From positions 8,532,001 to 8,596,000 of the forward strand of contig OX940863.1 in assembly GCA_954871525.1 (NCBI GenBank): DNA of 64,000 bases, read 5' to 3'. The translations under genes and the position numbers were made by a program. Below, piece by piece: positions 17,539 through 61,077 of the stretch (the first letter of the stretch is position 1; every line of letters starts with the position of its first letter). The notes under the pieces are model-generated. The model saw only the letters and a program-made list of their open reading frames with translations. It searched no databases and was not told the origin of the DNA. The DNA comes from Parietaria judaica (lineage: Eukaryota; Streptophyta; Magnoliopsida; Rosales; Urticaceae).

Positions 17539-17543
17539 GTAAC

Positions 17544-30912: not shown

Positions 30913-30955
<43 letters not shown>

Positions 30956-33294: not shown

Positions 33295-33347
<53 letters not shown>

Positions 33348-36300: not shown

Positions 36301-39300
36301 AGCACGCTGACTACACAAATAAATGCTTTCAGGTGGACCAGTCCAAATGGATTGCAATTACTATAGAGTACGAGGGAATAATTAAAGGGTATGTATAACT
36401 TCCAAAACTAAAGAATGCCAATACAGCATTACGGGAGCATAACATTAAACAACTCATTGAAGTAATACAGGAAATATCTTTCCAAACTAAATAGTTAAGA
36501 ATAAAGCATTCATATATATATTAAACTAACTGTCATAATTCGTTAAATTCATCCAGTCCTTTTAAGTATCAACAATTACATTTTCAATTCCATCACATAG
36601 ACATTCTTCTCCTATGTTTCCTCGTTGTACTCATTTGCAGTTTCAATGGAAGCATTTCTATAGTTACAATCAAAATACTCGTTCACATTAAGTATCGGAA
36701 AACAAATCTACTGAGAGCAAAAAGTTAGTGCAAATAATTTATGCTTCAGAATAAATTGCCTACATCATATGAAACTCTTCTTATGAACAAAAAATTCAAT
36801 GTAGAAGATAAGTTGTAGCATATAGTAATCATGAATTATTGGCTGGCCAAATCAAATAAGCGGAAATCCAATTTACCACATGGAAATTAATAAAGTTTCA
36901 AAAACAAACCTCCCAGTCAGTGCAGACAGGAAGCACGCGCTGTAAGTTGCTACAAAGGGCTGCATATACAGCTGATTCAAACTTCCCACCGTCTTGATGA
37001 GCAATTTTCTATTGATAAAGAGATGACCAATTAATACACTGAGCTAAACACGAAAAAACATTACATGATGCAAGCAAGAGGACTGTACACTAATCACCCA
37101 TTCAACCACACCTATTAAAACCCACACAAGATAAAAAGGAAAAAAACGACATCTTTTATATCATAATAAAAAAATAAAAACATGAACAGAGAACAAATAT
37201 TTCCAAGTAAATTTGTTCGAGAGGAGTTTGGGAACCTCGGAGGCGCAATAAGAGGCCCATCTCCACAGGCGCCATTGGTGGCCCGTGCCACTTTCAAGTT
37301 CTATCGCCTGCAACGTTCTGTCCTTCCCATTCTTTAAGAGGGCTTCCACGGATGGAAATTGGTTCAGCCCGCCAAAAGGAGACAATGTTGCAGCTCTCCA
37401 TGGCTGCCAAATCATTAGCAGATGTCAGGAGAACAGCCAAATACACAAATCAGCAATTACATATAATTATTATTTTCATGGACTTCGTAGCTTACTTGCC
37501 CTGCGGATCTGCAAAGATTACATGCCTCTTCAAGTCTCCCTGCTCTCAAAAGAGTCCAGAGATCTTCTAGAAGAGATTCATCTTGTTTCTGTTGTATAAC
37601 AGAAAATGAAATTCATATATTGAATAATTTCTCCGGGCAAAATGGGGGGAAACAAAGAACAGAAAGAAATGCGAGCACCAAGATTAAGGCTACAGATAGA
37701 TTCTATTTCAAACTTTTGCATACCATGGTCCGGTAGTTAGTAAAAGGTGTGCCATAAACTCAATATACCAAAGGAATCTAGTTCTACAAGTCAAATGGCA
37801 TAATGTGTACCTTATCATCGGGTAACTGGTGAGCATGTTCTCGTGTTGGAGCATCAAAATCTAGGTGATGAATAGTACCAGCATTTGAGGCTCCTCTTTT
37901 AAGATACCGTTGGGTATGACGCCAAATTCCAGAAGTTGGGAGATATGTCCCAACGTGTGATCCTCGCATCTATAAGTTAACAAAAATATAAAAACCAAAA
38001 TACTACTATACACACAAACAGATATCTAAAGGTTCAGGATGGCATTATCTATGCTCGCAAGAAAAAAGTTTATTAATCATCCTTCAAATAAAAACAGAAG
38101 CAAATGGTAAAAATATCAAAATGGGAAAGGGTAAATTCGTATTATGGTCCCAAGTAGAAGATCTCGTCATGAACATAAACTCGGAGAGAAACTCTCTAAT
38201 CCCAGGAGAAAACTGAACTCAACTTTTGATTGATATATTGCTCGCTTTATTTATTCCAGTGCAGCCTTTACATATTATTTCAATTATTTGCATCATTAAA
38301 AATAAAGAATAAAATGTAATGAGCCCTAAGAAACAAAAATCCTCAACTAAATGAAAGTGGGTGGGAACTTAGAAAGTACCAAGCAAATGCACATCCGCAA
38401 CAAAAATTATATGATAACGATTACCTTGCTTTCCAAGTCAAGCGCTTTGGAAGCTAAACCTTCGAGCCACTGAACAATCCTCAAGCATAACTGAGCCGTA
38501 TGGTCTTCAGCTACAAACTGGCAAGCCACTAAATGTGACGTTTGTGGCATCTGTCAAGGATTAAAGCATTCAGATGAGCCATTCCATGTTCTTTTCTACA
38601 TACTGACAGATTATAAACAGATGAAATAAAATGTGTCACCACTATGAGTTCTTTAGGGATATCTTCAGTTCCTGCAAGCAGAAGAAGAATTTTTAGTCAA
38701 AGAATACAAATGACGACATGAAGTTAATCTAGACATAGCTTTTCATTTCTTATACTTACTCAAACGGATGGAATTTATATAAAATATCGATTACAATACA
38801 AGTAAGAATGAGCTTTTTTTTTTCTTTTGCGAATGTTACTTCTAACAAAGAATACAAGGTCAGAATTAATTTCCTTTCCCATAAAGGTACCACAGAAGGG
38901 ACCAAGAAGCAGCCTCATCAAGCAGGAGCTGAGCTTTTTGCCTCATCAGCTTCTCCTCTGCAACTCGATGCCACACATCGGAGCTACCCCTATTGAAGCA
39001 ATAAGGGCAATTAATCAATTGATTATAGCAAAAAAAAAAAACTCAATCCTTTTTGTTCTTTCTTGGATAACGGAGCGGACAATATTGCTCAATTTCTATG
39101 TAGATAGTTTTTTTCCAAGGACCAGTACTCATAAAATAATAACTTTACAAACAGTGCAGCAATCAAATATGTAGGAATATATATTATGGGTATCCCTTTG
39201 CCGACCAAAATAATGAAAGTTAAACACCATATACCTAATTGACTGGGAAACGTTCCGACAGGACTCCTCAAATTTTAGAATTAGGTCAGAGAAAGGAATC

Positions 39301-39966
39301 AACCCTGCAAAAAAGAAACCAAATAATATATTTAGTCAAGCAAGTTTCTAGATAGTGATGAGGTGGCTGAAACTTTCCTTTTTCTACTGCCTCAAGCTCA
39401 CCGCAATCACACATTATCGAAATTGATTTAATGATCAAAACAAATGATTTCGAACTTTAACTAACACATAAGAAAGTAAGATTACACTGTTTGGGTAAGC
39501 TTGTGTTAATTACTGCTTGAAGTACCTTGAAGAGCAGAATCCAACAGGGAAGCAAAAAATGTAAACGTTGCATCGCCTCCATCAGCCAGCGACTCTTCCT
39601 CGCGTTTACAAGCTTTCAGTGAAGAGCGCACTGAACTAAAACCAACACCCACGTTTTCCGCTCCATGCCCGTCGTTGGAGAAAGCCCTTTTGGAAGCAGA
39701 ATATGACCTGATAGGCGTTCCTTCCATGTAACCGCCGTCGATGCTCTCCACCTCTTGCTTAATACTTTCGAGAATAAGAGCGGCATTTGTAGGGCTGTGA
39801 ATATTCTGCCCGTCGTAGAGCAACCCCGCTTCTCCGAACTTCGAAGGTGTCGATTCTCGGTGAGGCGATGCGCTTGAGCCTGGATATCTTTTCCTGCATA
39901 CTAAACAGATTAGAAGCGCTAAAGAACATCGTATGCACTCGAATCCGCACAACAAGAAATTCCCAG

Positions 39967-40018
<52 letters not shown>

Positions 40019-40216
40019 CAACCCTCAACAAAACCCCAAATCTCCATACCAAAACACCGCGACCGGCATTTCCGATTGAGCAATGAATCCATCGACTCGG
40101 AAAGTAGTGAGTGTTCTTGCTGTAGGTTATGCTTACCCGTATCGGCGATATTGCTCTCTGGTACTGAGGTCCTCGGGGTCGAAGTACCTCGGAGAAGCGT
40201 CCATGTCGACGTCCAT
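31201..40216 (-). CDS. NUP107: Nuclear pore complex scaffold protein NUP107
   Basis: Large gene with more than twenty short exons. Exon 1 (40137-40216) encodes MDVDMDASPRYFDPEDLSTR. Exon 2 (about 39525 to 39894) gives KRYPGSSASPHRESTPSK and SLLDSALQ. Later exons include WHRVAEEKLMRQKAQLLLDE (near 38900), GTYLPTSGIWRHTQRYLKRG (near 37940), LLRAGRLEEACNLCRSAGQ (near 37540), PWRAATLSPFGG (near 37400) and ETGFLQLFSQQQLQ (near 31640). The last exon ends EFLLFEREYSISQMEL with TGA at 31201. Family knowledge: an alpha-helical subunit of the Nup107-160 Y complex of the nuclear pore. No frame-breaking change was seen in the exons read, but not every junction was resolved. Several introns contain AT microsatellites. 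Confidence 0.88.
33297..33345. repeat. (AT)n microsatellite in NUP107 intron
   Basis: About 49 bases of AT repeat; shorter TA runs flank it at 33047-33069 and 33415-33433. Confidence 0.9.
39970..40015. repeat. (GA)n microsatellite in NUP107 intron 1
   Basis: About 23 GA units within the first intron. On the NUP107 strand it reads as a CT tract a short distance before the exon 2 acceptor. Confidence 0.95.
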
Positions 40217-40974: not shown

Positions 40975-40983
40975 ATTAAGTTA
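40975..40983. repeat. Outer 9-bp flank of left Pack-MULE
   Basis: ATTAAGTTA. Its partner is not next to the other end of the same element. It lies, reverse-complemented (TAACTTAAT), at 52649-52657 beside the inner end of the right element. Confidence 0.85.
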
Positions 40984-41200
40984 AGGCTTATTAGCAAAAT
41001 ACTCAATTAGAGTCAAACTATTTCAAAAAATACTCAAGGTTTAATTAATCCAAATCATACTCATTTTAAAGATTATTTTCCAAAAATATCCACACAAAAA
41101 GCCCACTCACAGAGTTGTCTTCTTCGCCAATCTCTCCCCCATTCCCTAGTTAGGGTTTCGAACCAGAACCCTCGCCGGAGTTCCGACCAGTCCGGCGACC

Positions 41201-42031
41201 ATGGCTCGTAACGAGGAGAAAGCGCGGTCCATGCTCAACCGCTTCATCACCATGAAGGAGGAGGAGGAGAAGAAGCCCAAGGAGTGCCGCCCCTTCCTGG
41301 CCTCCGAGTGTCGCGACCTCGCCGACGCCAACAAGTGGCGCCAGCAGATCCTCTGCGAGATCGGCCGCAAGGTCGCCAAGATCCAGAACGAGGGCCTCGG
41401 CGAGCACCGCCTCCGTGACCTCAACGACGAGATCAACAAGCTCATCCGCGAGAAGGCCCACTGGGAGCGCCGCATCGTCGAGCTCGGCGGCGCCAACTAC
41501 GCCAAGCACTCCTCAAAGATGACCGACCTCGACGGCAACATCGTCGACGTCCCCAACCCAGGCGGCCGCGGCGCGGGCTACCGATACTTTAGCGCGGCGA
41601 AGAAGCTCCCCGGCGTGCGCGAGCTCTTCGAGAAGCCACTGGAGCTGCGGAAGCGGCGCACGCGCTACGACATCTACAAGCGGATCGACGCGAGCTACTA
41701 CGGGTACCGCGACGACGAGGACGGGGTCTTGGACCGCGTGGAGGCGCCGGCGGAGGCGCGAATGAGGGCCGCGGCAGAGTGGCAGAGGATGGAGGAGATT
41801 CGGGTGGAGGCGAGGCGGGCGGTGAAGAGCGGGGAGGTGGCGATGGTGGCGGTCGTGGCGTGGGAGGTTCTGTTCGAGGAGGAAGAGGAGGTGGTGGAGG
41901 ACGAACGGCGAGAGAGGGAACTGAAGGAGCGGAACGAGAGCGAGCGGGAGTTCGTGGTGCACGTGCCGCTTTCACGTGGTCCGCACAGAATGACTGTCGA
42001 TGTTGACTTGACGGTCATGGTGGCGAGCTAA
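41201..42031 (+). CDS. ISY1-like splicing factor, altered C-terminus (MULE copy 1)
   Basis: Intronless open frame of 276 residues. MARNEEKARSMLNRFITMKE through HVPL matches ISY1/NTC30, a spliceosome NineTeen-complex protein: DLADANKWRQQILCEIGRK, GANYAKHSSKMTDLDGNIVD, RYDIYKRIDASYYGYRDDED. After VHVPL the family sequence stops and a short unrelated tail SRGPHRMTVDVDLTVMVAS follows, so the conserved C-terminal end of ISY1 is missing. Very GC-rich compared with its surroundings. The frame is open in both MULE copies, which differ by about two residues. It may be an expressed chimeric gene or a young captured copy. Whether an intact parental ISY1 exists elsewhere cannot be seen here. Confidence 0.75.
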   Translation: MARNEEKARSMLNRFITMKEEEEKKPKECRPFLASECRDLADANKWRQQILCEIGRKVAKIQNEGLGEHRLRDLNDEINKLIREKAHWERRIVELGGANYAKHSSKMTDLDGNIVDVPNPGGRGAGYRYFSAAKKLPGVRELFEKPLELRKRRTRYDIYKRIDASYYGYRDDEDGVLDRVEAPAEARMRAAAEWQRMEEIRVEARRAVKSGEVAMVAVVAWEVLFEEEEEVVEDERRERELKERNESEREFVVHVPLSRGPHRMTVDVDLTVMVAS

Positions 42032-42593
42032 AGAGGAGCCCAGGTGGTTCAGTTCATGGCTCCCATGATCACTCAATACATTTTATTTATTTTATTTTAT
42101 TTTTCAATATTCTTATTCTTCATTATTATCATTATCCTTCCCATTTTAAGATTTCCACTTCACTGTGCATTGATTTTATTCTACAGATGAAATTGTGTCA
42201 AAACTCCATTTTTTTCCCTTATGTTTAAGGCTTGATATTGTCTTTATAGCTTGCTTGCGATGAATTGGCTGTGCTACTTTATGACATGCTATAATATGAC
42301 TTTCTTTTATTTCCATCAACGACCATTTAAATGACTCATCAAGTGGTATAGTGTTATTAACACACTGTAGAAAACCAAATATATAAGGATCGTTATAATT
42401 AAGGCATAAAGAATGCTTTTTTTTCTACCTGAAACAACATTATATACTCTTTAAATTGTCATTACTGACTTATTTATTATAACCCTTATAATTAAGTTAC
42501 TGCTTTATGATGGAGTAAATAGTTGAAATTACATTATTTTCCTATCTTGTCAAGCCTCTTCTAATCAGGCTAAAAAGTGTAACATGCATAAAA

Positions 42594-43235
42594 TACGTTA
42601 ATGTAACTAAAGTTACATAAGTTACATTAGTGTAAATGTACTTACCCAAATGTAACTTTAGTTACATAAGTGTAACTCTTGTTACCCCAGTGTAACTGTA
42701 GTTACCCAAATGTAACTGTAGTTACCCAAATGTAACTTTAGTTACATAAGTGTAACTGAATTTACCCAAGTGTAACTGTAGTTACTCAAATGTAATTTTA
42801 GTAACTTTAGTTACATAAGTGTAACTGAATTTACCCAAGTGTAACTATACTTACCCAAATGTAACTTTAGTAACTTTAGTTACATAAGTGTAACTGTAGT
42901 TACCAAAATGTAACTTTAGTTACATAAGTGTAATTGTAGTTACCCAAATGTAACTTTAGTTACATAAGTGTAACTCCAGTTACATAAATGTAATTCCAGT
43001 TACCCAAGTGTAACTTTAGTTACATAAGTGTAACTCCAGTTACATAAGTGTAACTGTAGTTACCCAAATATAATTTTAGTGACTTTAGTTACGTAAGTGT
43101 AACTGCAGTTACCCAAGTGTAACTGTAGTTACCCAAATGTAATTTTAGTAACTTTAGTTACATAAGTGTAACTCTTGTTACCCAAGTGTAACTTGGTTAC
43201 CCAAATGTAACTTTAGCTACATAAGTGTAACTCCA
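42594..43235. repeat. Palindromic GTAAC satellite array, copy 1
   Basis: About thirty units of roughly 20 bases, typically GTAACTTTAGTTACATAAGT or GTAACTGTAGTTACCCAAAT. Each unit has an inverted repeat GTAACT-N2-AGTTAC. Confidence 0.93.
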
Positions 43236-43244
43236 GTTACCCAA

Positions 43245-43434
43245 TGTACTTTCCGTGCTCCCCTGCGTCGAGCCGGAGAATCCGACGAACATAAAATCGG
43301 CGACGTACTCTTCGAGATCGAGCGGCACGGAGAGAACCGGGTCGCTAGGCTTCATATTCAAATACGAAACCGACACGTTCAGGACCCGGCCCGACCCGGA
43401 GTATTCGATCCAGACATTGACGAGATCTACGCGA
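43245..43434 (-). pseudogene. L-type lectin receptor kinase fragment (MULE copy 1)
   Basis: Minus-strand translation gives [20 protein letters not shown], then LDLEEYVADFMFVGFSGSTQ, a typical stretch of the legume-lectin domain of plant lectin receptor kinases. It begins and ends abruptly at TFCD sequence and satellite. No kinase domain. Confidence 0.75.
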
Positions 43435-44262
43435 GATCACCGCCTTGTACCCACAAACCGTGACCAGGGAATAAATGATTATGCAAATAGGCTTGATTAC
43501 TTCGAGAATCTTCCCCGAAGCCACGCCTAATTCAATGGTTTTGGACCGGACGATAAACATCAGCGGCGACACAATGCTCTCCAAGCAAGGCTCAATGAGC
43601 TGCCCTTGCTCTTGGTACTTGTCCATCTATAAAATCACACACAAATACATAGAAATTCCATGATTCTGCAACCATTAACAATACAGCTCTAATTAATTTT
43701 CATAAATTTATCTGCTTGTATAAAGTTTGAACAAATCAAACACTAAATCTCATAATTAGCAAATTGATCCAACATCAAACTTCGTGCTCTTGATCCTTGT
43801 CCCTCCATATGCAAAAGAAATCGTCTGTAAAACTAGAATTCTAAGTAATTTGTTTCCATTTATAGTTCGATCTGAACAAATTCGTATACTTTGATAAAGT
43901 TTTTAACGAAAAAAATTCACAAATTAACAAGTAAATCTCAGAACTAAGCCTATTGATCCAACATAAAGCTTCATAACCGAAACAAAAGAGTAACCTAAAC
44001 CCATCAACATCGAAAGCGAAACCGATATACATTGCACACAGAGAGAGAAAGAGAGAGAGTAAGATGGATCGGATCTGGTGAGTGACAGAAGGATTAGGGA
44101 CTCCTCCCATGGAAACGATGTCGTCCAAGAGGGACTTCACGAGCTCCCACTCCTGAAGGAAGTACTTCTGGAGAACCTACTCCTTGGAGCCGTGCTCGTC
44201 GTATTCCTCGTCGAAGTCCTCCGTCGGCATCGCCGTCTCTTCCGTCGGAGCTGCCATTGCTG
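43435..44262 (-). pseudogene. Tubulin-folding cofactor D 5' fragment (MULE copy 1)
   Basis: Exon 1 (about 44077-44262) encodes EETAMPTEDFDEEYDEHGSK, then a TAG stop, then [20 protein letters not shown]. Exon 2 (about 43435-43626) encodes [20 protein letters not shown] and TVCGYKAVI. These match the N-terminus of TFCD (TITAN1 in Arabidopsis). The intron between is kept, so capture was from genomic DNA. The stop in exon 1 and the missing remainder make it non-functional. Confidence 0.8.
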
Positions 44263-44630
44263 CGCAGAGAAGAAAGCTTGCTCTCTCTTTCCTGCCTCTG
44301 GGATCAGTGACAGTGATGGAGAGCGATTGTTTTCGCTCTTTCAACTCTAACTCCGTGCTTGAAATCACAGCCATCGATCTGCGACGACAATCGCGGTTCG
44401 TTGAACCTGGTTGAACAACAATGGCGGAAGAAGAGTCGAACAACAATGGCGGAAGAAGCCGTGATCGAGCGCTGAGGATTGAAGACGAAGCCTATCGAAC
44501 GTGACTGAAAAGAAAGAAGAGGGTATATTTGTCCTAAAAAGCCCAAATGAGGTTTTCTTTAATTATAGCAAACATTTGAGTATCATTTTGAAATAGTTTG
44601 ACTCTAATTGAGTATTTTACTAATAAGCCC

Positions 44631-45540
44631 TAATATAAATGACTATTCAGTATACAAAGTGTATACCGAACCGAAGGCTCAATCGAATCTAATTGGATCG
44701 TATTTTATAGATCGAAGCTTACTTCCACTTTAAAGTACAAGATTTATGGTAGGTGGGTACTTGGATTTTTGTTTTGAGAGTTTTTTTTTTTTTTTTTGGT
44801 TGAGAACCTAAATATTGTTGCACCAAAATTAATGTAAAAAAATTAAGATTACGTTGATTTGCCAATATTAACGTATGTGAACGTGGAAAGAATTATAGTT
44901 CACCTTTGCGTATCCTCAAATTTGGCAATTACATTCCAATGTAGTCATTACATGTTAGATGTTTTTATCAGTGTCGTTATTTATTGAGTTTCAAAATTGG
45001 CTAGATTTTTTTCTTATAATATGAGTCACTATCGGAGATTAAAAAATATCTAAAAAATTAATGTAACGCTAAAAATAGTATGACAGAAAACAGGTTTATT
45101 TAACAGAAAGTAACAAATATATAAAAACTAAAAAGTAATTTTTTTTTTTTAATTAAACATTAAATTTCTTAGCTTATTACCGCGACGCCCAAGAAGACAA
45201 TTAAATTGAATATTATTAGTTATTACCGGAAAATCACTAAAATTATCTGTTCTGTATTGTAAGTTGTAATATTGTTATTTGTTAGAAAATAGATATTAAT
45301 TCCATTTAATACGAAGGCTTAGATACAGCTGTCCGTTTCCTATTCGTCGATGAAGAATCAGTCTGACCAGCTCCGTACCTTATCATCACTCCTCGTGAAC
45401 CATATGACCGATTTACCCCTCGAAACCCATCCTTCGTTTTCTCGCTTTGCCTCTCTCTCTCCTCTCTCTCTCTCTGCACGAACCCTAACCTCAAACTTTC
45501 TCGGAAAATTTGTTGATTTTCACGGGAAATCGCCGGGGAA
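44631..45540. other. UBP1 upstream region beside Pack-MULE copy 1
   Basis: AT-rich upstream region and leader of UBP1. It starts with TAATATAAA (44631-44639), the inverted half of the right-hand target duplication. A CT-rich tract at 45440-45480 lies in the presumed leader. Confidence 0.6.
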
Positions 45541-47595
45541 ATGCAGCACCAGAGGCTGAAGCAGCAGCAGCAGCAGCAGCAAGCTCTGATGCAGCAAGCC
45601 CTCCTCCAGCAACACTCGCTCTACCACCCCGGAATCCTGGCTCCTCCTCAGGTCAGACCTCTCTCAGAATCGCGATCACTGCCTCTGATCTCGTTTGATT
45701 GTTTCGGACGTTCTTCGCATTTCGCTTTCACGCGATTGCGATGGCGATTGTGGTTGTGGTGAGAGTTAGGGTAAGGCTGTTCCATTTCTGTTAGGGCGAG
45801 AGTTTGCGAGCTAGGGATTTGGGCGTGAAGTTTCTTTCCTCTTCTCATGGAAGATTTCCGCCTTATCGGGAATTTAGATGATTCTTTCGGCTTTGGATTC
45901 TGGGTTACTCGTTTATGCCTCTGTGTTTGTTCGCTGAAAGCTTTTTTGGACTTCGATATGATGCGTTTGCATGACTTGCCACTATGAGACCTTGTTTTGG
46001 CAGGAAATGAATGTTTGAGTTCCGCCTTTTCACTTTCTAAAAAATTATTTCCAGAAATGGTTTGGGAACGTTTTGTTTTAGATTCTGCACTTCGTTTTTC
46101 AAAATCCATGACTAAATTTTTTGAAACCTTTTAAATCATTTTGATTTTTGTTTCTTGTTGCTGATTAAGAAAGCATGTAAGTGGTCTTGCTTTGTTGGGC
46201 TGTATTTGCTGCGTGAAATACCAGTTTTAATGGTTATATGCCCCTAATATATGAGGTTTTTATTTACGTCGAATTTCGCTTTGGTTGCTCGTAGCTGTTC
46301 ACAGATGTAGAGTGTAAACAACTTTCCTCTAGTTTAGGGGGTTCTCTCGTAAAAACCCGTTAGTTAGGAGTAGTTTGAAGCTCAAGTTCTCGTGACTTTT
46401 AGTTTCGAATGAGTATTAACGTCTGAAAATTGCAATTTCCTTGCAATACTTCTTCTTGCTATGTGTCTGAAAACTTGACTTGCTTGAGCACTGGTCAGTA
46501 TCTGACCTAATTCCGTTGGTAATTTATTCTTGTAGATGATGTTTCTCAAAAGTTAGTTTCTGTATATTGTGCCTTCTTCCACTCCACTTGAATATTTAAC
46601 ATTGTATCGACTTTTATTAGTGTTCTCCGCGAGATAGTCAGACTTAACATCTAATAAAGAGACAGTGCTATCCCAGCCTTCGGCATAACTATTACTCGAC
46701 TTACAGTTAGGCTTTTTAGTTGATTTGAGAATTTAATGGAGGTTTAATCAATTAAGACTTTAGGAATTTGATAGACCTTAAAAGTAATGGTCTAAGTGTG
46801 TAACTTGGTGTAATTTTTTCCTTTATTGTGCACGTGATAAGTTCTTTTCATTTTTTATATTTTCAACTTTTTTGTAATGTGGTATTTTAGCTTATTAAAG
46901 ATTCCGTTAAATTTTTTCAAGTTTGAAACCAGAATTTCTGATAGGATAGATACAGGAGCCCCCTTTTTATTTTAATTTTATCCTTTTATTTTTCCTTTAT
47001 TTTCTTTTTAATTTTTATTTTTGCAGATTGAGCCAATCCCAAGTGGAAATCTGCCTCCTGGTTTTGATCCAAGTACTTGCCGCAGTGTGTGAGTGTTTGT
47101 TTAGACATTTTTCTTTTCTTATTTATATTTTTTCTTTTCTTGGAATGTTTGTCTTGCAACCTTCACATTATTGTGCAACTTTTAGGGCTTCATAGTACCT
47201 GTGTATATTAGATACAATTACACTAATTCTTTGAACCACTGTGATTACAACCATGTCCTTAACTATACTTTTGCTTCGTTTTTTATTGGATCTTTTTAAA
47301 TTCATGCTTAAATTTTATGGGCAATAAATCACATATGTCTAAATCAATTTTGTTTGTTCTTCCCTTTTTTAAAACTTCCAGTTTCTTTATTTTTGAGAAA
47401 TTGCAGGTATGTTGGAAATATTCACACCCAGGTAACAGAGCCTCTTCTTCAAGAGGTTTTTGCAAGTACTGGTGCTGTTGAGGGCTGCAAACTTATTCGA
47501 AAGGAAAAGGTACATACATTTATAATTGTAATTGATTTCTATTCCTTTTCAGCTTTCTTGTGCTGCCTTTGTGCCTTAAGGTCATTACTTGCTTA

Positions 47596-47636
<41 letters not shown>

Positions 47637-50076
47637 GGCTTTGTATTCTAGCTAGTTTCTAATCGTTTCATGTCTCGTCTATGTGTTTCGGCAGTCATCC
47701 TATGGATTTGTACACTATTTTGACCGTAGATCAGCTGCCCTTGCTATATTGTCTCTAAATGGAAGGCATCTGTAAGTAAAACTATTGCTGATCGTTTTTT
47801 CTTACTTTGTTCACGCCTTTGCTCTAAGTTCTTGACGCTTATGATGCATTCAAATTTCAGGTTTGGACAGCCTATCAAAGTAAATTGGGCATATGCTAGT
47901 GGCCAGAGAGAGGATACATCAGGTATTTTGTTTCTGTTCGTTTGCCTGAATCTTGGTGCTGGCTTGGTGAATCTGTTGGTGTCACTGGGCTGGGCCCATG
48001 AAACCCATAGAACCCTGCAAAACCCATTAAAATATTAACACCAGTTGATTGACCCATAAGGCATTAATAGGTTTTGTAGCCTTTTGGGTGGTCTATGGAT
48101 TTCGGGGCCGGTCCAGCCCAGCCCACTGACACACTAGTTGGAACTATTTATGGAATGATTCATATTTCCCTACTGTCATGTCAGTTCATGAAATATTTTC
48201 TGTTTTTGCAGGTCATTTCAACATTTTTGTTGGTGATCTCAGCCCTGAGGTTACTGATGCTACGTTGTTTGCGTGCTTTTCTGTTTATACCAGTTGTTCG
48301 TAAGCTTCGGCTCTGACTTTGAAATTATGATTCACTTTTTTTTTTCTTTTTTCCAATGATCAGTTTTAACAGAGTTATCACGTGGATAAGATTATCGTGG
48401 CCTTTCAGTTTGACCATTTTCTCTTTCAGAGATGCAAGGGTCATGTGGGATCAGAAGACCGGACGGTCCAGAGGATTTGGTTTTGTTTCATTCAGAAGCC
48501 AGCAGGTACAATTTTCGTAATAAATCTGATGTTTTTTTTCCTATTGCCTTAATGCCTGACTAGACTCTGAACAAAGTAATGTCTTTTTCTATTCTTTCAG
48601 GATGCTCAAAATGCGATAAATGACTTGACTGGTGAGAACATGCTTTTAGTTATAAATACCCCTTTTTATATTAACAATTTATGCTTTGCTTTCTACTAAA
48701 ACAAGCCACTTATGAACGGGTGTGAATATTTTTTTATTGGCATAAACTGTTTTGTTTTTGTTTGCTTTTAGATTCGGACGCAACATACTGTTCATTTCAT
48801 CTAACTTTGTGCGTGTATTCTTGTGCTTCTTGTGTCATGGTTCAGGTAAATGGCTCGGTAGTAGACAGATTCGATGCAACTGGGCAACCAAAGGTGCTTT
48901 ATCAAACGAGGACAAGCAGAGTACTGATGGGAAAAGCGTGGTTGAACTAACCAACGGCTCGGGTGAGTCGATTATCTTCCGCACTTAATGACGACAAATG
49001 ATTTCCATTCATGACTGTTTAAAGATGTGCAACTTTAATCTTTTGCTTCATATATGGTTATATTAATAAGTACCGTTTACCTTTAAGCTTCATTACGAGG
49101 TTGCTATAATATAACAGTAAGAAATAAGGTTGTGGTTTGATTCTCGACATTACAGAAGATGGGAAGGATACAAGCAATAGCGAGGCCCCGGAAAACAACC
49201 CTCAGTATACTACTGTGTATGTTGGCAATCTTGCCCCAGAGGTTAGTAATCTCATTTGTTGTTATCCTTCTCTTTTGCTACACTGTTTCTTTTGGTAGCC
49301 GAAAATGACTCTAGTTTTCTGAGAAGAAAGAACCTGAGCCGTGTTAAATGGTATGTTTTGCGTGTGAGCCCAGGTGAGTCAGCTTGACCTGCACAGGCAC
49401 TTTCATAACCTTGGTGCTGGGGTGCTCGAGGAGGTGAGGGTTCAGCGCGATAAAGGCTTTGGGTTTGTGAGGTACAGCTCGCACGCTGAGGCGGCTCTCG
49501 GTATTCAGTTGGGGAACACCCAGTCACTTCTGTGCGGCCGCCAGATCAAGGTATTTGTTATATATGCGTAAAAGTCAATTACGTTATTTAATCTAATTAA
49601 ATTAGGTCCTGTTATGGTTAGATTATGTTAGGGATTAGTAAATCGTGTTTAGGGGTTTAATTTGGTTGGCCCTGATCCAGCCAATCAGGTTACAATCTTT
49701 ACTCTAAGGGGTAATATTGCCATGAAATTTTAAAATTTTCTTCCTCCAGTTCGGCCCCGTTCCCTTGTGACACTAGTCTATCTCGATGTTTTGGGTGCAG
49801 TGCTCGTGGGGCAGCAAGCCCACTCCAGCCGGGACGGCCTCGAACCCGCTCCCTCCCCCGGTGGCGGCCGCCATGCCGGGGATCTCGGCCAACGACCTCC
49901 TGGCGTACGAGCGGCAGCTTGCCATGAGCAAGATGGGCGGGGTGCACGCCCTGATGGGGCAGCACCCGCTGAAGCAGGGCACGATGGGGATGGGCGCGGC
50001 GGGTGCCAGCCAGGCGATCTACGACGGCGGGTTCCAGAACGTGGCCGCGGCTCAGCACCTCATGTACTACCAGTAA
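45541..50076 (+). CDS. UBP1: Oligouridylate-binding protein UBP1
   Basis: Twelve exons (45541-45651, 47027-47088, 47407-47509, 47695-47771, 47861-47922, 48212-48299, 48430-48505, 48601-48631, 48846-48962, 49156-49241, 49374-49550, 49801-50076) encode 421 residues. Family knowledge: U-rich RNA binding, pre-mRNA processing and stress-granule formation, related to animal TIA-1. After a Gln-rich start ([14 protein letters not shown]) there are three RRMs: [15 protein letters not shown] to [25 protein letters not shown] to RGFGFVSF, and [20 protein letters not shown] to [10 protein letters not shown]. The end [15 protein letters not shown] ([11 protein letters not shown]) is typical of the family. 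Intron 1 is about 1.4 kb. The gene lies in the segment inferred to be inverted. Confidence 0.93.
47597..47636. repeat. (ATT)n microsatellite in UBP1 intron
   Basis: About 13 ATT units in the intron between UBP1 exons 3 and 4. Confidence 0.9.
47979..48132. mobile_element. Possible short MITE in UBP1 intron 5
   Basis: The ends are imperfect inverted repeats: GTGTCACTGGGCTGGGCC on the left and GGTCCAGCCCAGCCCACTGA-type sequence then CAC on the right. No convincing target duplication was found. Confidence 0.4.
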
Positions 50077-50866
50077 AAATAATATCCGATATAATAAAAT
50101 ATTCCTCTTGACTTGTAGGATAAGTTCTTTTTCTATTTTTATTTTATTTTATTTTTGGGTTTGGTTTGTCATCCCACTTTGATGTGATCCTGTCTGTGGA
50201 TGAGTGTCTTGTATGATTTTCTGCTTTCTTATTATGATGAGTGGTTATTATAATCAGAGGGAGTTATATATTATTATTAAATTCTACGACTCTTGTGATT
50301 TTTCATTTCAATTTTTATGCAAGAGTAACAACCTTATATTCATAAGTCTATATTCAACTTTTTGGTCCTTCGGTTTTTCGATTTTTTTTGTTTTGTACAC
50401 CCCTAATTCATTGTTACTTAAAAAAGAGCATGTTCCTAAACTTTTTTTTTTTAACGGATGAAGTACTCAATGTCTTGGGAGCACACGTTATTCACTTCTG
50501 GGAATTTAATCCGTTAAAAAATGATTAGGGATATATTTGCCCTTTTGTAGTAACTAAGGAAATGTATGCCACAATTACCTGTATTTGTAAGAGAGTTCGA
50601 ACATCTAATAAATATTGAAAATTTAGGATGTTTATTGTCGAAAAAATAAAGCCTGTGTAGAAGTACATAAGTTCTAATAACTTCGCATATATTTACCGCT
50701 CATAACTCAAAAGTTCAATTCAATTGAGATGTAAGATAGCTTATCATTCTCTTCTAGCAAAAACGAACCTTAAAGATCCGCAAATTATCCACGCCCTCTA
50801 CCAAGCGTTCCAACCTCCATTACGTTTTACCCGAAAGCATTACAATAATCCGAATTGGAACCAACA
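50077..50866. other. Convergent spacer between UBP1 and FLU
   Basis: The 3' regions of two converging genes. AT-rich, no other gene or element recognised. Confidence 0.6.
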
Positions 50867-52373
50867 TCAGTCTCTTTCCAGTCTTGCAATGTACTGATCA
50901 TAGAAATTTCCGGCTCGCTCGAGATCTCCAAGCTCAGTGTAACAGTCAGCAATCGCTCCGTAAGCTTCCGTGTTTCCTGAATCCTCCCCTTCTCGCTTAG
51001 AAATATCGAGAACCATGGTGTGGTATTTTATGGCTTCGCGATACTTGCCTTGTCGCTGAAGCGAGGCTCCTGAGGCACAAAAAAAAACAACAACGAATGA
51101 ATTCAGTGGAAGCCTTTATATGAAGCAACCGAAACAAGAGTTTGGCACGGGAAACTAACCTAGTCCTCTGGCTGCCTTCTTCTCCTTAGTAGAATCCTTA
51201 AGGGCTCGGGCGAGCTCTAGGGCCGTCTGGAACTCCAAGAACGCTTTCTCCGGTTCCTGATTCCTCAGAAACGTTTTCCCGGCTCTGAGATGAGAGATCA
51301 AATCCTGCTTACTTGGATCGACAATGACTTCGCTCTCCGAAATTCTCCCGGGGGAAGGAGCATAGCTCAAGCTGGGAGCGTAGGACTCGATCTTCGCTTG
51401 CCTCCTAAGGGCAGCATTTATCTGACGCAGCTGTTCGTTAAGCCGTGCTAGCTCTCCTCTCCTCTGTCGAGCAAGCAAACCTGTTGCCCTAAAGTTAGAC
51501 CATCGATATTTACGGAGCGATAACATCAGAGGGAGGATCGACATTGACCTCCGACAGTGGCCCCCACAAGAGCCACGCCTAGCAGCACAGGCATGTTGGA
51601 CATGGGGCCTTCAGCTTCGCACGTTTCCGCCATGGCTTTGAGAGGCATCAATGCGTTGCTAGCGAAAAATGCCACTGCCAGGACGCTGCATTCTCGTACA
51701 TTTCCCTGTCAAACCAGAAAGCGGTTTAAATGTTGCAAGTTGCAACGATACGCGTAAAAATTGATACAACAACAACCAGTTTTAAATGAGAAACGAAAGG
51801 AACAGCTGAAGGAAGACTCACCATCATACCTGACAATTCGAGCTCGGTTCGAAAACCTCAACCAGTCCATTGCGACCGTCTTTGTACGACGAGATAAGTC
51901 TTTCGACTTTGGGCGAAAAAGAGCTCAGCTTTCCTGATTCACACCCAAAAAAAGCGCGAAATTCAGCGACATCGATGCACAATTCACACATTGATCAAAA
52001 CATCAGTACTATCTAGCAAACCAGAGAAGCCATGGAACAATGTGGCCGAAAATTAGATAAGCTTTTCAACTTTGAGTGAAAAGAGAACTCAGCTTTCCCA
52101 ATTCACACACAAAAAACCGCAGATTCAAGGACACGAAAGAACACTGAGGATTTCAAGCAGTGAATCTAGCGAGCAAGAGACGCCATAGAAAGCTAAGCCA
52201 TTGAAACACGGAGAAGCAGTACGAAGACTATCATTGACGCAGAGAGTCTAGGAGTTTCAGTGATCCAGTGCGGACATACCGGAAAGACAGTGGGTGGCGG
52301 AGAGTTGATCGGACGGCGGAGATCGACGGCGGTCGACGGCGAGGAAGGAAGAGCAACGGAGCAGCACCGCCAT
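50867..52373 (-). CDS. FLU: FLU, TPR negative regulator of chlorophyll synthesis
   Basis: Five exons (52280-52373, 51830-51933, 51549-51705, 51160-51480, 50867-51069) encode 292 residues. Family knowledge: FLU is a plastid membrane protein that binds glutamyl-tRNA reductase and represses 5-aminolevulinate synthesis in the dark. Visible features: a short Ser/Arg-rich N-terminus (MAVLLRCSSFLAVDRRRSPP), a hydrophobic segment around VLLGVALVGATVG, a coiled-coil segment RRGELARLNEQLRQINAALR, and C-terminal TPR repeats (LRAGKTFLRNQEPEKAFLEF, GASLQRQGKYREAIKYHTMV, IADCYTELGDLERAGNFYDQ). No frame breaks. Its start lies only 284 bases from the inverted target-site half beside Pack-MULE copy 2, so its distal promoter was replaced or displaced by the inversion. 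Confidence 0.92.
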
Positions 52374-52648
52374 TTCCTTCAAGCTGAGATAGCATCGTAC
52401 ACTCAGGATTTCAAGGATAATATTAATATCTGCCAAGAAGATTGGAAAATCAACCTTCTTTTTGGACTTATTTACCAAAATGCCACTCGTCAGGAATTAT
52501 TGGTTCCTTTTTTTTTTACCCATTCCGCGACTGGGACTTATGTCTTATAATGTGCTGATAATAGTTTTATTAAAATAAAAAGTTTTAATGATATTAATAT
52601 ATAAGTAAATATTGTTAAATTAAAACAAATAAATCTGTCTTTACAGTA
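52374..52648. other. FLU proximal upstream region
   Basis: Short upstream region of FLU. A block of AATGATATTAATATATAAGT-like words resembles sequence on the NUP107 side (40560-40610). Confidence 0.5.
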
Positions 52649-52657
52649 TAACTTAAT
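52649..52657. repeat. Inner 9-bp flank of right Pack-MULE
   Basis: TAACTTAAT, the exact reverse complement of the outer left flank ATTAAGTTA at 40975-40983. Confidence 0.85.
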
Positions 52658-53027
52658 GGGCTTATTAGTAAAATACTCAATTAGAGTCAAACTATTTCAA
52701 AAGGATACTCAAAGGTTTGCTATAATTAAAGAAAATCTCATTTGGGCTTTTTAGGACAAATATACCCTCTTCTTTCTTTTCAGTCACGTTCGATAGGCTT
52801 CGTCTTCAATCCTCAGCGCTCGATCACGGCTTCTTCCGCCATTGTTGTTCGACTCTTCTTCCGCCATTGTTGTTAAACCAGGTTCAACGAGCCGCGATTG
52901 TCGTCGCAGATCGATGGCTGTGATTTCAAGCACGGAGTTAGAGTTGAAAGAGCGAAAACAATCGCTCTCCATCACTGTCACTGATCCCAGAGGCAGGAAA
53001 GAGAGAGCAAGCTTTCTTCTCTGCGCA

Positions 53028-53857
53028 GCAATGGCAGCTCCGACGGAAGAGACGGCGATGCCGACGGAGGACTTAGACGAGGAATACGACGAGCACGGCT
53101 CCAAGGAGTAGGTTCTCCAGAAGTACTTCCTTCAGGAGTGGGAGCTCGTGAAGTCCCTCTTGGACGACATCGTTTCCATGGGAGGAGTCCCTAATCCTTC
53201 TGTCACTCACCAGATCCGATCCATCTTACTCTCTCTCTTTCTCTCTCTGTGTGCAATGTATATCGGTTTCGCTTTCGATGTTGATGGGTTTAGGTTACTC
53301 TTTTGTTTCGGTTATGAAGCTTTATGTTGGATCAATAGGCTTAATTCTGAGATTTACTTGTTGATTTGTGAATTTTTTTCGTTAAAAACTTGATCAAAGT
53401 ATACGAATTTGTTCAGATCGAACTATAAATGGAAACAAATTACTTAGAATTCTAGTTTTACAGACGATTTCTTTTGCATATGGAGGGACAAGGATCAAGA
53501 GCACGAAGTTTGATGTTGGATCAATTTGCTAATTATGAGATTTAGTGTTTGATTTGTTCAAACTTTATACAAGCAGATAAATTTATGAAAATTAATTAGA
53601 GCTGTATTGTTAATGGTTGCAGAATCATGGAATTTCTATGTATTTGTGTGTGATTTTATAGATGGACAAGTACCAAGAGCAAGGGCAGCTCATTGAGCCT
53701 TGCTTGGAGAGCATTGTGTCGCCGCTGATGTTTATCGTCCGGTCCAAAACCATTGAATTAGGCGTGGCTTCGGGGAAGATTCTCGAAGTAATCAAGCCTA
53801 TTTGCATAATCATTTATTCCCTGGTCACGGTTTGTGGGTACAAGGCGGTGATCTCGC
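53028..53857 (+). pseudogene. Tubulin-folding cofactor D 5' fragment (MULE copy 2)
   Basis: Same as in copy 1 but on the plus strand: EETAMPTEDLDEEYDEHGSK, TAG stop at 53109-53111, [20 protein letters not shown], retained intron, then [20 protein letters not shown]. Sharing of the stop shows that it predates the duplication of the element or was spread by conversion. Confidence 0.8.
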
Positions 53858-54045
53858 GTAGATCTCGTCAATGTCTGGATCGAATACTCCGGGTCGGGCC
53901 GGGTCCTGAACGTGTCGGTTTCGTATTTGAATATGAAGCCTAGCGACCCGGTTCTCTCCGTGCCGCTCGATCTCGAAGAGTACGTCGCCGATTTTATGTT
54001 CGTCGGATTCTCCGGCTCGACGCAGGGGAGCACGGAAAGTACATT
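53858..54045 (+). pseudogene. L-type lectin receptor kinase fragment (MULE copy 2)
   Basis: [20 protein letters not shown] and DFMFVGFSGSTQGSTES on the plus strand, fused directly after TFCD exon 2 sequence and before the satellite. Confidence 0.75.
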
Positions 54046-54046
54046 G

Positions 54047-54860
54047 GGTAACTGGAGTTACACTTATGTAGCTAAAGTTACATTTGGGTAACCAAGTTAC
54101 ACTTGGGTAACAAGAGTTACACTTATGTAACTAAAGTTACTAAAATTACATTTGGGTAACTACAGTTACACTTGGGTAACTGCAGTTACACTTACGTAAC
54201 TAAAGTCACTAAAATTATATTTGGGTAACTACAGTTACACTTATGTAACTGGAGTTACACTTATGTATGAATTACATTTATGTAACTGGAGTTACACTTA
54301 TGTAACTAAAGTTACATTTGGGTAACTACAATTACACTTATGTAACTAAAGTTACATTTTGGTAACTACAGTTACACTTATGTAACTAAAGTTACTAAAG
54401 TTACATTTGGGTAAGTATAGTTACACTTGGGTAAATTCAGTTACACTTATGTAACTAAAGTTACTAAAATTACATTTGAGTAACTACAGTTACACTTGGG
54501 TAAATTCAGTTACACTTATGTAACTAAAGTTATTAAAATTACATTTGGGTAACTACAGTTACACTTATGTAACTAAAGTTACTAAAATTACATTTGGGTA
54601 ACTACAGTTACACTTATGTTACTGGAGTTACACTTATGTAACTGGAGTTACACTTATGCAACTAAAATTACATTTGGGTAACTGGAGTTACACTTATGTA
54701 ACTGGAGTTACACTTATGTAACTAAAGTTACATTTGGGTAACTACAGTTACATTTGGGTAACTACAGTTACACTGGGGTAACAAGAGTTACACTTATGTA
54801 ACTAAAGTTACATTTGGGTAAGTACATTTACACTAATGTAACTTATGTAACTTTAGTTAC
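54047..54860. repeat. Palindromic GTAAC satellite array, copy 2
   Basis: Reverse-orientation version of the array in copy 1, about 40 units of roughly 20 bases. It is longer than copy 1 by about 170 bases. Confidence 0.93.
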
Positions 54861-55431
54861 ATTAACGTATTTTATGCATGTTACACCTTTTAGCCTGATT
54901 AGAAGAGGCTTGACAAGATAGGAAAATAATGTAATTTCAACCATTTACTCCATCATAAAGCAGTAACTTAATTATAAGGGTTATAATAAATAAGTCAGTA
55001 ATGACAATTTAAAGAGTATATAATGTTGTTTCAGGTAGAAAAAAAAGCATTCTTTATGCCTTAATTATAACGATCCTTATATATTTGGTTTTCTACAGTG
55101 TGTTAATAACACTATACCACTTGATGAGTCATTTAAATGGTCGTTGATGGAAAGAAAAGAAAGTCATATTATAGCATGTCATAAAGTAGCACAGCCAATT
55201 CATCGCAAGCAAGCTATAAAGACAATATCAAGCCTTAAACATAAGGGAAAAAAATGGAGTTTTGACACAATTTCATCTGTAGAATAAAATCAATGCACAG
55301 TGAAGTGGAAATCTTAAAATGGGAAGGATAATGATAATAATGAAGAATAAGAATATTGAAAAATAAAATAAAATAAATAAAATGTATTGAGTGATCATGG
55401 GAGCCATGAACTGAACCACCTGGGCTCCTCT

Positions 55432-56262
55432 TTAGCTCGCCACCATGACCGTCAAGTCAACATCGACAGTCATTCTGTGCGGACCACGTGAAAGCGGCAC
55501 GTGCACCACGAACTCCCGCTCGCTCTCGTTCCGCTCCTTCAGTTCCCTCTCTCGCCGTTCGTCCTCCACCACCTCCTCTTCCTCCTCGAACAGAACCTCC
55601 CACGCCACGACCGCCACCATCGCCACCTCCCCGCTCTTCACCGCCCGCCTCGCCTCCACCCGAATCTCCTCCATCCTCTGCCACTCTGCCGCGGCCCTCA
55701 TTCGCGCCTCCGCCGGCGCCTCCACGCGGTCCAAGACCCCGTCCTCGTCGTCGCGGTACCCGTAGTAGCTCGCGTCGATCCGCTTGTAGATGTCGTAGCG
55801 CGTGCGCCGCTTCCGCAGCTCCAGCGGCTTCTCGAAGAGCTCGCGCACGCCGGGGAGCTTCTTTGCCGCGCTAAAGTATCGGTAGCCCGCGCCGCGGCCG
55901 CTTGGGTTGGGGACGTCGACGATGTTGCCGTCGAGGTCGGTCATCTTGGAGGAGTGCTTGGCGTAGTTGGCGCCGCCGAGCTCGACGATGCGGCGCTCCC
56001 AGTGGGCCTTCTCGCGGATGAGCTTGTTGATCTCGTCGTTGAGGTCACGGAGGCGGTGCTCGCCGAGGCCCTCGTTCTGGATCTCGGCGACCTTGCGGCC
56101 GATCTCGCAGAGGATCTGCTGGCGCCACTTGTTGGCGTCGGCGAGGTCGCGACACTCGGAGGCCAGGAAGGGGCGGCACTCCTTGGGCTTCTTCTCCTCC
56201 TCCTCCTTCATGGTGATGAAGCGGTTGAGCATGGACCGCGCTTTCTCCTCGTTACGAGCCAT
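55432..56262 (-). CDS. ISY1-like splicing factor, altered C-terminus (MULE copy 2)
   Basis: Second copy of the 276-residue ISY1-like frame, same length and same non-ISY1 tail after VHVPL. Differences from copy 1 include RKVAEIQN for RKVAKIQN and VPNPSGRG for VPNPGGRG; Glu in RKVAEIQN is the family residue. No stop or frameshift. A long antisense open frame covers the same bases only because the sequence is GC-rich. Confidence 0.75.
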   Translation of the reverse strand: MARNEEKARSMLNRFITMKEEEEKKPKECRPFLASECRDLADANKWRQQILCEIGRKVAEIQNEGLGEHRLRDLNDEINKLIREKAHWERRIVELGGANYAKHSSKMTDLDGNIVDVPNPSGRGAGYRYFSAAKKLPGVRELFEKPLELRKRRTRYDIYKRIDASYYGYRDDEDGVLDRVEAPAEARMRAAAEWQRMEEIRVEARRAVKSGEVAMVAVVAWEVLFEEEEEVVEDERRERELKERNESEREFVVHVPLSRGPHRMTVDVDLTVMVAS

Positions 56263-56479
56263 GGTCGCCGGACTGGTCGGAACTCCGGCGAGGGTTCTGG
56301 TTCGAAACCCTAACTAGGGAATGGGGGAGAGATTGGCGAAGAAGACAACTCTGTGAGTGGGCTTTTTGTGTGGATATTTTTGGAAAATAATCTTTAAAAT
56401 GAGTATGATTTGGATTAATTAAACCTTGAGTATTTTTTGAAATAGTTTGACTCTAATTGAGTATTTTGCTAATAAGCCC

Positions 56480-56488
56480 TTTATATTA
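56480..56488. repeat. Outer 9-bp flank of right Pack-MULE
   Basis: TTTATATTA, the exact reverse complement of TAATATAAA at 44631-44639 beside the inner end of copy 1. Confidence 0.85.
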
Positions 56489-57594: not shown

Positions 57595-57609
57595 AGTGAT
57601 ATCTCTATA

Positions 57610-57812
57610 ACCAAGCTTGCTTGGCCTAGTGGTAACACCACTACTCACATCTCCAAGAGGTAACGAGTTCAAACCCCATGTGAAGCAAAATGTTTGCCCC
57701 CTTTACATATGTAAACTTGGCCAATAGTGTCACTTGTTCTTAAACTGAATATATCTAGTAATGCGAGAGTGCATTGTAACCTTGGTCGATAACGCCACCC
57801 TATTAAAAAAAA
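57610..57812 (+). mobile_element. tRNA-derived SINE, copy B, with 15-bp target duplication
   Basis: A box TGGCCTAGTGGTAA near the 5' end, B box GAGTTCAAACCCC, body shared with copy A (ATGTAAACTTGGCCAATAG, TTGGTCGATAACGCCACCC) and a short A tail. Flanked by AGTGATATCTCTATA at 57595-57609 and 57813-57827, an exact 15-base duplication, so both ends are defined. Confidence 0.92.
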
Positions 57813-57827
57813 AGTGATATCTCTATA

Positions 57828-58413: not shown

Positions 58414-60435
58414 TTATAATCTAAGTTGAAGCTGATCTGAGCATTGACCTTCCCTCGAACTACCTTCTTCGCCCGTCAAGGTCGCCGGCGCGGGCCCGGG
58501 GGCGCGGTTCGGTACTTGGTACGGCGCTTTCGACGCCACCCTGAATGTTACAAAGAAAATAAACCCTTAGTACTAATAAGTATTACATGAAATATAGTTT
58601 CTTAAATAATAATGAAAACTGATACGACGTGTTTACCTGTCTTTCCTCTTCTCCAAGAACCGGTGGAGCGAGTTTCTTCTCGCAATGGGCAGATCTGCAA
58701 AACGAGAGAGCGAAAAACGTTACACGAAGATTCTCGTATATCGTGAATGTTAAATATATTTATATTTATAAATATCATAATCGTTGATGGAAGCGTGTGT
58801 CGCATTCAGATCTTAAAAAACTAACCACATATTCGGTCCATTATAGCTTTTGTATTTGTATCTCAACGTGTTAAATTATGATCTTTTAACATGTTTAGGT
58901 CATTACTTTTAGTAATTAATGGTAATTATTCTTATTGAATACTAACCAAATTGCATAATTGGTCAAAAGCTCTATTTAAACGTGTTAATTACGATAATTT
59001 TTTGTTTAAATCATTGCGACGAACTTAAAAAGCAACGCTCACCAGATCCGTTGGCGGGCTCGGAGGGTCGTGGTTGCATCAGAGGCTGATCACTCTTCTT
59101 CTGCTTATTATTATTATCGCTGTCCTCCTCAATGTTGACGCTAATGTTAATGTCAATCTCGGCCTTCTTAGTGACGACAGGCAACACAGGATTCGGTGGT
59201 TCGGGAGAAACAGATGCAGACTTGCTCAGATCGATATGCTCAATCACCACGGGCTCTGGAACAGGGATGCGGCCTTTGATGTTGGAGCTTCCCTTTCTCG
59301 CCAAAGCTATCACATCGTTGGCTCTGTCTCCGTTGAGACCGTTGAACACCAGAACTTGGCCCGCGAAAAAAATCGTCATCTGAGAACCTTCCTGCTTCAT
59401 AACCGGCATTCGAATCGGAACCATTGCTTTACAACTTGTAGATTTCCTATAAAAAGATAAGAACGAAGAAATGGATTCAGTGTTTTTTTTTTCTTCTCGT
59501 TTACAGACAAGTTGTTCGAGCTAGAAGTGAAACCATAAGCGGGGACCGGGAATTAGACTACTTTCTCCCATTTTCGTTTTCCGGGAATTAATTTAATTAT
59601 TGTAAAATCCATTTTTTTGGGAACCAGTACAAACATGGAACTGGGACCGTTAAAAAAGGCGGTTGAAACCAGTACTTACTAAAACAATTTATATCTAAAA
59701 AATAAAAATTCAGGACCAAGAATTCCACTACTCCGATTTCCGTAAACCGGTCCCGTTGACCCCGTATCGTAAAAATTGATGATCTTAAACCCCGGCGTCG
59801 GGAACAGCTATAAAATTTCACCCGGGGTTTATCATAATCTAGCTTCTTCTAGTCCTAAAAAGTCATAAAATAAATTTTATTAAAAAAATTGTTCAATATC
59901 GTCAATTCTTATGAATGGAGTCATTTTTGTCATTGCATGGCCACACATAAAACGCTATTTTGAAGGATAATGTTTTATTAATAAAAATATTGGACCCAAG
60001 TTTCCTCTATCAACATTCAACGCTAAAACCAAAAATAAATGAATAAATAAATATTAAAAAAAACTAGCGCCATTCACAGTTCTCAATTCTCACACACACA
60101 CACACACACACACCTTAGATCAGCTTTATTGGCCTCTTCCGATTCGAGATCCACAACATCGTGACCGAAGCCCGAGGATTTCACCGTCGCCGGCGGAGCT
60201 CCGGCCAAACTCCTCGCCGTCGCTGAAGGCAAAAAAGCATCTCCGGTCAATTTCTTCGAAGACATCACCTCCGAAATTCTCTCAGTTCGTGGTTCGTACC
60301 TTTCGTTTCTGCATTTCCAGACACTCCGACGCCGAGACTCCTCTTCTCCTTGAGGAACTGGCTGAGCAGAGTGCACGCCTGAGCAAAGTTCGACCTCTCC
60401 GCCGGCGATTTTCCAGGTCTCTGGCCGGAAACCAT
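58414..60435 (-). CDS. JAZ5/6-type TIFY jasmonate repressor
   Basis: Five exons (60300-60435, 60114-60240, 59043-59446, 58637-58694, 58414-58540) give 283 residues with consistent phase; the exon 2 acceptor is the least certain. JAZ proteins repress MYC2-type factors and are degraded through COI1 when jasmonoyl-isoleucine is present. The N-terminal NT segment is SNFAQACTLLSQFLKEKRSL. The TIFY/ZIM domain is MTIFFAGQVLVFNGLNGDRA (TIFF in place of TIFY, as in JAZ5/6). The Jas motif has the degron DLPIARRNSLHRFLEKRKDR followed by VASKAPYQV, split by an intron in the usual Jas position. The last residues LQLRL form an EAR-type LxLxL motif that could recruit TOPLESS directly. The JAZ5/6 assignment rests on this end and the NT segment. 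Confidence 0.9.
60090..60113. repeat. (GT)n microsatellite at a JAZ 5' splice site
   Basis: On the gene strand, exon 2 ends CTAAG and the intron starts directly as GTGTGTGT for about 12 units. Confidence 0.9.
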
Positions 60436-60484
60436 GGCGCTTCTCCGATATTGGCGGCAAGATCTCGAGGAGAGAGAGAACCCT

Positions 60485-60486
<2 letters not shown>

Positions 60487-60512
<26 letters not shown>
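60487..60512. repeat. (GA)n microsatellite in JAZ leader
   Basis: Thirteen GA units about 50 bases upstream of the JAZ start codon (CT repeat on the gene strand). Confidence 0.9.
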
Positions 60513-60515
<3 letters not shown>

Positions 60516-60601
60516 GGAAGGCAATGAATTCCACTGGTATCGTTTGGACTTTGCTTCTTTTATTCCTCATCTTTTGGGGTCTTCCTCTCCTCGCATTTCC
60601 G

Positions 60602-60607
60602 CACGTG
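60602..60607. promoter_or_regulatory. G-box upstream of JAZ
   Basis: CACGTG about 170 bases upstream of the JAZ start codon. G-boxes are MYC2 sites, and JAZ promoters are usually jasmonate-induced through them. Confidence 0.55.
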
Positions 60608-60629
60608 TTTTTTGCTTCCGAATAAAGTG

Positions 60630-61019: not shown

Positions 61020-61077
<58 letters not shown>

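Follow-up and report, generated by a model that had tools for sequence, protein, structure and literature searches.

Inversions that arise by recombination between two transposon copies leave published marks, namely copies in opposite orientation, exchanged target-site duplications and chimeric copies (PMC2775673). In the Drosophila buzzatii inversion 2z3, two opposite copies of the element Galileo have exchanged their target duplications, and the target is single-copy in the non-inverted chromosomes (PMC2775673). Inversions made by recombination have no matching duplications, and the flanks are usually non-identical (PMC8225341); the same is seen at the plant locus described here. This locus lies in a 64,000-nucleotide stretch of the Parietaria judaica genome (assembly GCA_954871525.1, contig OX940863.1, positions 8,532,001 to 8,596,000, forward strand; hereafter the window, in which positions are counted from its first letter). 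Two copies of one Mutator-like element (MULE), A and B, enclose an 8,027-bp segment (44631..52657) that carries a UBP1-type gene and FLU. Our results suggest, with a probability of about 0.93 and from the sequence itself, that the order in the window is derived and that the segment was inverted when the two elements, after inserting separately, recombined with each other.

Copy A occupies 40984..44630 on the plus strand (3,647 bp), with its ISY1 end on the left and its TBCD/lectin end on the right, while copy B, from the same family, occupies 52658..56479 in the opposite orientation (minus strand; 3,822 bp). The two differ at 19 substitutions (0.52% of 3,624 aligned positions) and by two minisatellite indels, and as inverted arms they are 99% complementary. 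Neither copy has matching flanks of its own, since in each of them only 2 of the 9 flanking bases agree. Instead, the nonamer to the left of A, ATTAAGTTA (40975..40983, plus strand), is the exact reverse complement of 52649..52657 (minus strand), and the nonamer to the right of A, TAATATAAA (44631..44639, minus strand), is the exact reverse complement of TTTATATTA at 56480..56488 (plus strand). Both crosswise matches stop at nine bases. The first pair would represent the two copies of the target of A (site A) and the second those of the target of B (site B), with the copies at 52649..52657 and 44631..44639 displaced and reverse-complemented by the inversion. Random 9-mers taken from the surrounding AT-rich flanks match with an empirical chance of about 4.7e-5 per pair, so that two independent pairs would be expected at about 2e-9. 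The crosswise matches and unmatched own flanks had been reported in a preliminary description of this DNA, and reading the window base by base confirmed them, together with its element coordinates and both 9-mers.

We then asked how other members of the family are flanked. The genome (538.7 Mb in 87 contigs) was searched with the TBCD-side end of the element, 40 of 594 candidates being scored for this end, and at least 41 matches were obtained, the two in the window included. Sixteen stretches around the next-best matches served as a control. Both ends were recognised by pattern in eight of them; the other eight had one recognised end only and are uninformative on the flanks. In the two-ended copies the flanking 9 bp were identical in six cases, while one copy agreed at 8 of 9 positions and one at 5 of 9. 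Thus, the family usually duplicates 9 bp, as the preliminary description had presumed for a normal insertion, and the pair in the window is exceptional. These 9-bp duplications and the terminal inverted repeats, of about 45 bp and 43/45 identical in A, place the family among the MULEs. Note that the first base of the element is A in copy A and G at the remaining three ends of A and B.

A different idea is that the inversion is older or unrelated and that the elements inserted at its edges later. In rice, inversion breakpoints are known to be rich in MULEs (PMC10030860), an enrichment that does not by itself show the cause. Later insertions would carry their own matching 9-bp flanks, which neither A nor B does, and the crosswise pairs require that the inversion followed both insertions; we consider the probability of this scenario negligible.

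What we propose is the following. Two copies of the same MULE family would have inserted separately and in opposite orientation, each duplicating 9 bp: one in the 5' region that NUP107 and FLU shared while they stood head to head, at target ATTAAGTTA, and the other between UBP1 and a JAZ-type gene, at target TTTATATTA. A crossover between these near-identical 3.7-kb elements would then invert the intervening 8,027 bp and swap one duplication of each target site. We infer a homologous crossover, which could have been meiotic or could have followed from a break in one element repaired from the other. Separate opposite insertions followed by a crossover predict the whole pattern at once.

In support of this, the ancestral arrangement is present elsewhere in the same genome. 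A second match of the FLU exon led to a block on another contig, C10, and the 100-kb stretch around this match was compared with the window. Two parts of the window, from about 1 to 40557 and from 56480 to 62286, run collinear with C10 in minus orientation. Positions 44652-52541, between these two parts, align in plus orientation, opposite to both flanks. Counting only hits of at least 150 bp, 24000-40600 gave 16,695 bp in minus and 0 in plus, 44640-52648 gave 7,722 bp in plus and 0 in minus, and 56489-62300 gave 5,436 bp in minus and 0 in plus. A and B have no C10 match of at least 150 bp, and the family terminal repeat, allowing up to 4 substitutions, is absent from the 100 kb of C10. The gene order there is NUP107-FLU-UBP1-JAZ, with start codons at 29893013 (NUP107), 29891298 (FLU) and 29884814 (UBP1) and the JAZ region at 29879888-29881619. 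A single TTTATATTA is found at 29883894-29883902, at the UBP1/JAZ junction, where 30 bases of C10 are identical to the window flanks once these are joined; the flanks of site B, contiguous on C10, are separated by about 12 kb in the window. At the position of site A, NUP107 and FLU stand head to head on C10 and the alignment of the flank on the FLU side reaches the target, which is consistent with this being the ancestral target, though short of base-level proof.

The preliminary description had proposed separate insertions followed by a recombination flipping 44631-52657, and the order and the single target B on C10 support this. The order that it obtained by un-flipping the segment, NUP107-FLU-UBP1-JAZ, is the one present on C10, where NUP107 and FLU still form the pair that it held to have been parted. 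The finding named there as speaking against it, close relatives free of both elements but with the UBP1-FLU order of the window, has a counterpart within this genome, and the element-free block on C10 has the opposite order. The Arabidopsis locus numbers behind its gene order are also right, these being consecutive: At3g14100 (UBP1C), At3g14110 (FLU) and At3g14120 (NUP107). Consecutive Arabidopsis locus numbers denote neighbouring genes. Our literature search found no paper naming these Arabidopsis genes together. In Parasponia, NUP107 and UBP1 are each listed on a contig of 450,215, and in Morus each on one of 262,035; since the sizes are equal, the two genes probably share one contig in each of these plants.

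The mismatch to C10 is 4.97% in the left flank, 4.75% in the inverted segment and 6.7% in the right part. Since the value for the segment is near that of the left flank, the segment is the original partner, and we rejected its import from elsewhere. Collinearity leads us to regard the C10 block as a probable homeolog that dates from a duplication of the genome, although the argument from gene order would hold equally well for a large segmental duplication.

Another possibility could be alternative (aberrant) transposition, in which the ends of two elements act as one transposon, re-insert nearby and invert a segment. This process is known for Ac/Ds (PMC8225341), and a review describes a 1.17-Mb Arabidopsis inversion from the MULE Vandal5, one end of which inserted elsewhere (PMC5664140). 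It should leave a single new duplication that matches between the breakpoints, while the remaining flanks stay as they were, which is not what we found: by our reasoning, one such event can't make both pairs crosswise. Moreover, C10 has target B once, as an ordinary site that keeps its two flanks, and the match of the inverted segment to C10 extends over its whole length except for a gap at 50340-50618. We therefore regard this route as very improbable. What we observed are the marks of recombination: opposite-orientation copies at the breakpoints, exchanged target duplications, and the ancestral order with a single target B in the element-free block.

Several observations weigh against recombination between A and B as the origin of the window's order. 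The third published mark, chimerism, was looked for by polarising the A/B differences with outside copies of the family. Seventeen of the 19 substitutions were counted (41599 was not polarisable and 43020 lies in the minisatellite), giving 12 A-derived and 5 B-derived sites in 5 runs (P ~0.06), with no clean switch point. The pattern was nearly sorted when the copies L009 and L010 alone were used, and not sorted with up to 16 copies; for several of the 17 sites the polarisation depends on just one or two outside copies, and at 40984, 41638, 44552 and 44574 the outside copies disagree. Next, C10 resolves only half of site A: on the NUP107 side it lacks about 300 bp that the window has, and the 9-mer has diverged. 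Two stretches also depart from the collinear pattern by matching C10 in plus orientation: a 204-bp stretch at 22835-23036, and 63144-63642, which matches C10:29859832-29860422 beside the collinear minus block and could be another rearrangement or a dispersed repeat. As for deep synteny, locus tags disagree between Rubroshorea and Bertholletia. The Rubroshorea tags of NUP107 and UBP1, SLE2022_307970 and _307990, could accommodate one gene between them, whereas the Bertholletia tags, NMG60_11002362 and _11002363, leave room for none, unless FLU is unannotated.

Finally, the order in the window is that of the assembly and could, with a low probability, reflect a flip by the assembler. In that case the plant would carry two ordinary insertions in an otherwise ancestral order, and the 8-kb segment between the inverted repeats would have been turned in the assembly. 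This true order would give both elements matching flanks, it is the order present on C10, and reads shorter than about 4 kb would be unable to place the segment. The 538.7 Mb of the genome are, however, assembled in 87 contigs, reaching 63 Mb among those inspected, which points to long reads; there is no N in the window, and A and B differ at the 19 sites and by two indels. An artefact is unlikely, though less so than the other rivals.

If the window does carry an inversion by recombination, this would be recent. The divergence between A and B is about one tenth of that between the blocks (0.52% vs 4.7-6.7%), which suggests that the later of the two insertions, and the inversion too, happened long after the block duplication, unless gene conversion has kept A and B alike. 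The inversion may still be polymorphic. A more tentative idea, which we think doubtful, is that the segment still acts as a flip switch, with both orientations coexisting in the species or recurring, because the arms share 99.5% identity across 3.6 kb and are separated by only 8 kb. If true, the switch would give FLU alternately the NUP107-side and the JAZ-side promoter context.

The genes at the locus were placed as follows. NUP107 lies at 31219..40216 on the minus strand, with its start codon at 40216; tblastn with the Trema protein covered residues 1-1083 of 1087, and this protein was used to map the gene exon by exon in both the window and the C10 copies. Its closest relatives among the matches listed in a protein search are from Trema, Parasponia, Cannabis and Ulmus. 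The UBP1-type gene, an RRM oligouridylate-binding protein gene matching plant proteins of this name, lies at 45541..50073 on the plus strand, and its start codon (45541) was picked by eye. FLU, a TPR gene that matches the Arabidopsis FLU chains in PDB entries 4yvo and 4yvq, lies at 50870..52373 on the minus strand; its start (52373) and first exon were also picked by eye. The JAZ-type gene (59014..60559, minus strand, approximate limits) has its 3' end toward B and consists of a tify-domain exon (59014-59520) and a frame at 60086-60559, which was added by eye and has no Pfam match.

Before the insertions, NUP107 and FLU would have stood head to head, with about 1,042 bp between their start codons. 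In the window, the gene facing NUP107 is UBP1, on the far side of A, which lies 768 bp from the NUP107 start codon and 911 bp from that of UBP1, and B lies 285 bp upstream of the FLU start codon. The changed promoter context might affect the expression of FLU, NUP107 and UBP1. FLU down-regulates the first enzyme of chlorophyll precursor synthesis (PMC4726326). The locus offers a natural promoter-swap experiment, in which FLU has been cut from its head-to-head partner NUP107 and the unswapped copy in the same nucleus is the control.

An AT-rich unit of about 45 bp is repeated at 40492-40663 and at 52575-52625, close to the two sides of the ancestral NUP107-FLU intergenic region. On C10 this intergenic region contains a transposon-like insert of 1,005 bp (C10:29891472-29892476). 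It has long terminal inverted repeats, a duplication of 9 bp (TAAAAATTA) and termini unlike those of A and B, and it lies 174 bp upstream of the C10 FLU start codon. The NUP107-FLU promoter region was thus struck independently by MULE-like elements in both genome copies. We also considered whether the C10 FLU is a pseudogene, as it has one in-frame TAG, and rejected this: the TAG lies near query residue 14, is probably intronic and falls outside the part matching Arabidopsis FLU (residues 67-129). Farther to the left, window positions 9140-21315 have multiple overlapping C10 matches, off the collinear line in the repeated part at 9-21 kb, which suggests a tandemly duplicated gene cluster.

A and B carry host gene sequence (ISY1 and legume lectin) between their terminal repeats, as Pack-MULEs do. 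An ISY1-like predicted frame of 276 aa is uninterrupted in both, at 41201..42031 (plus strand) in A and 55432..56262 (minus strand) in B; the family name of the frame in A was taken from the B copy (Pfam PF06246, E 3.1e-79). The frame of B has about 80% identity to plant ISY1 over 93% of the length, and its C-terminus is unlike that of the Cucumis protein. Legume-lectin (Pfam PF00139, E 1.3e-8) and TBCD-like fragments lie at 53662..54040 (plus strand) in B and are mirrored in A. Database searches gave no match for the second fragment, which we take to be TBCD-derived. Both copies contain a 20-bp minisatellite, at 42631..43248 in A (plus strand; 31.2 units) and, longer, at 54048-54843 in B (37.3 units), whose units appeared partly palindromic by eye. 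Inspection by eye revealed no transposase in the list of open reading frames of A and B, and no autonomous partner was sought.

We noticed no plant inversion produced by recombination between two MULEs with exchanged duplications among the open-licence titles and openings of abstracts that our searches listed, which is weak evidence of absence. The locus adds a clean case to those of a well-known mechanism and does not amount to a new kind of event; what makes it interesting is how complete the evidence is, together with the promoter swap, rather than any new biology. With its near-complete footprints (exchanged duplications, young elements and an element-free duplicate block), it can serve as a standard for telling recombination from aberrant transposition.

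Among the described systems, 2z3 differs from the locus in that Galileo belongs to the P superfamily and makes 7-bp duplications, while here a plant MULE makes 9-bp ones; chimeric copies were reported for Galileo (PMC2775673), and the polarised sites of A and B speak clearly neither for nor against chimerism. As in the Arabidopsis inversion from Vandal5, a plant MULE would be the cause, but there one end inserted elsewhere and the other stayed at the donor site, without recombination of two copies in the review's account (PMC5664140). In another plant case, homologous recombination between inverted repeats likewise swaps the upstream regions of genes; the repeats, however, are duplicated genes and not transposons, and the scale is about 45 kb. 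The maize p1/p2 inversions made by Ac/fAc also have DNA transposons at both breakpoints and an altered gene context, but their breakpoints carry matching 8-bp duplications (PMC8225341). In Citrus (Arrufatina), the MULE CitMule_1 also sits at a rearrangement and, like A and B, has 9-bp flanks that do not match each other, although there a single element lies beside a 2-Mb deletion (PMC4334395).

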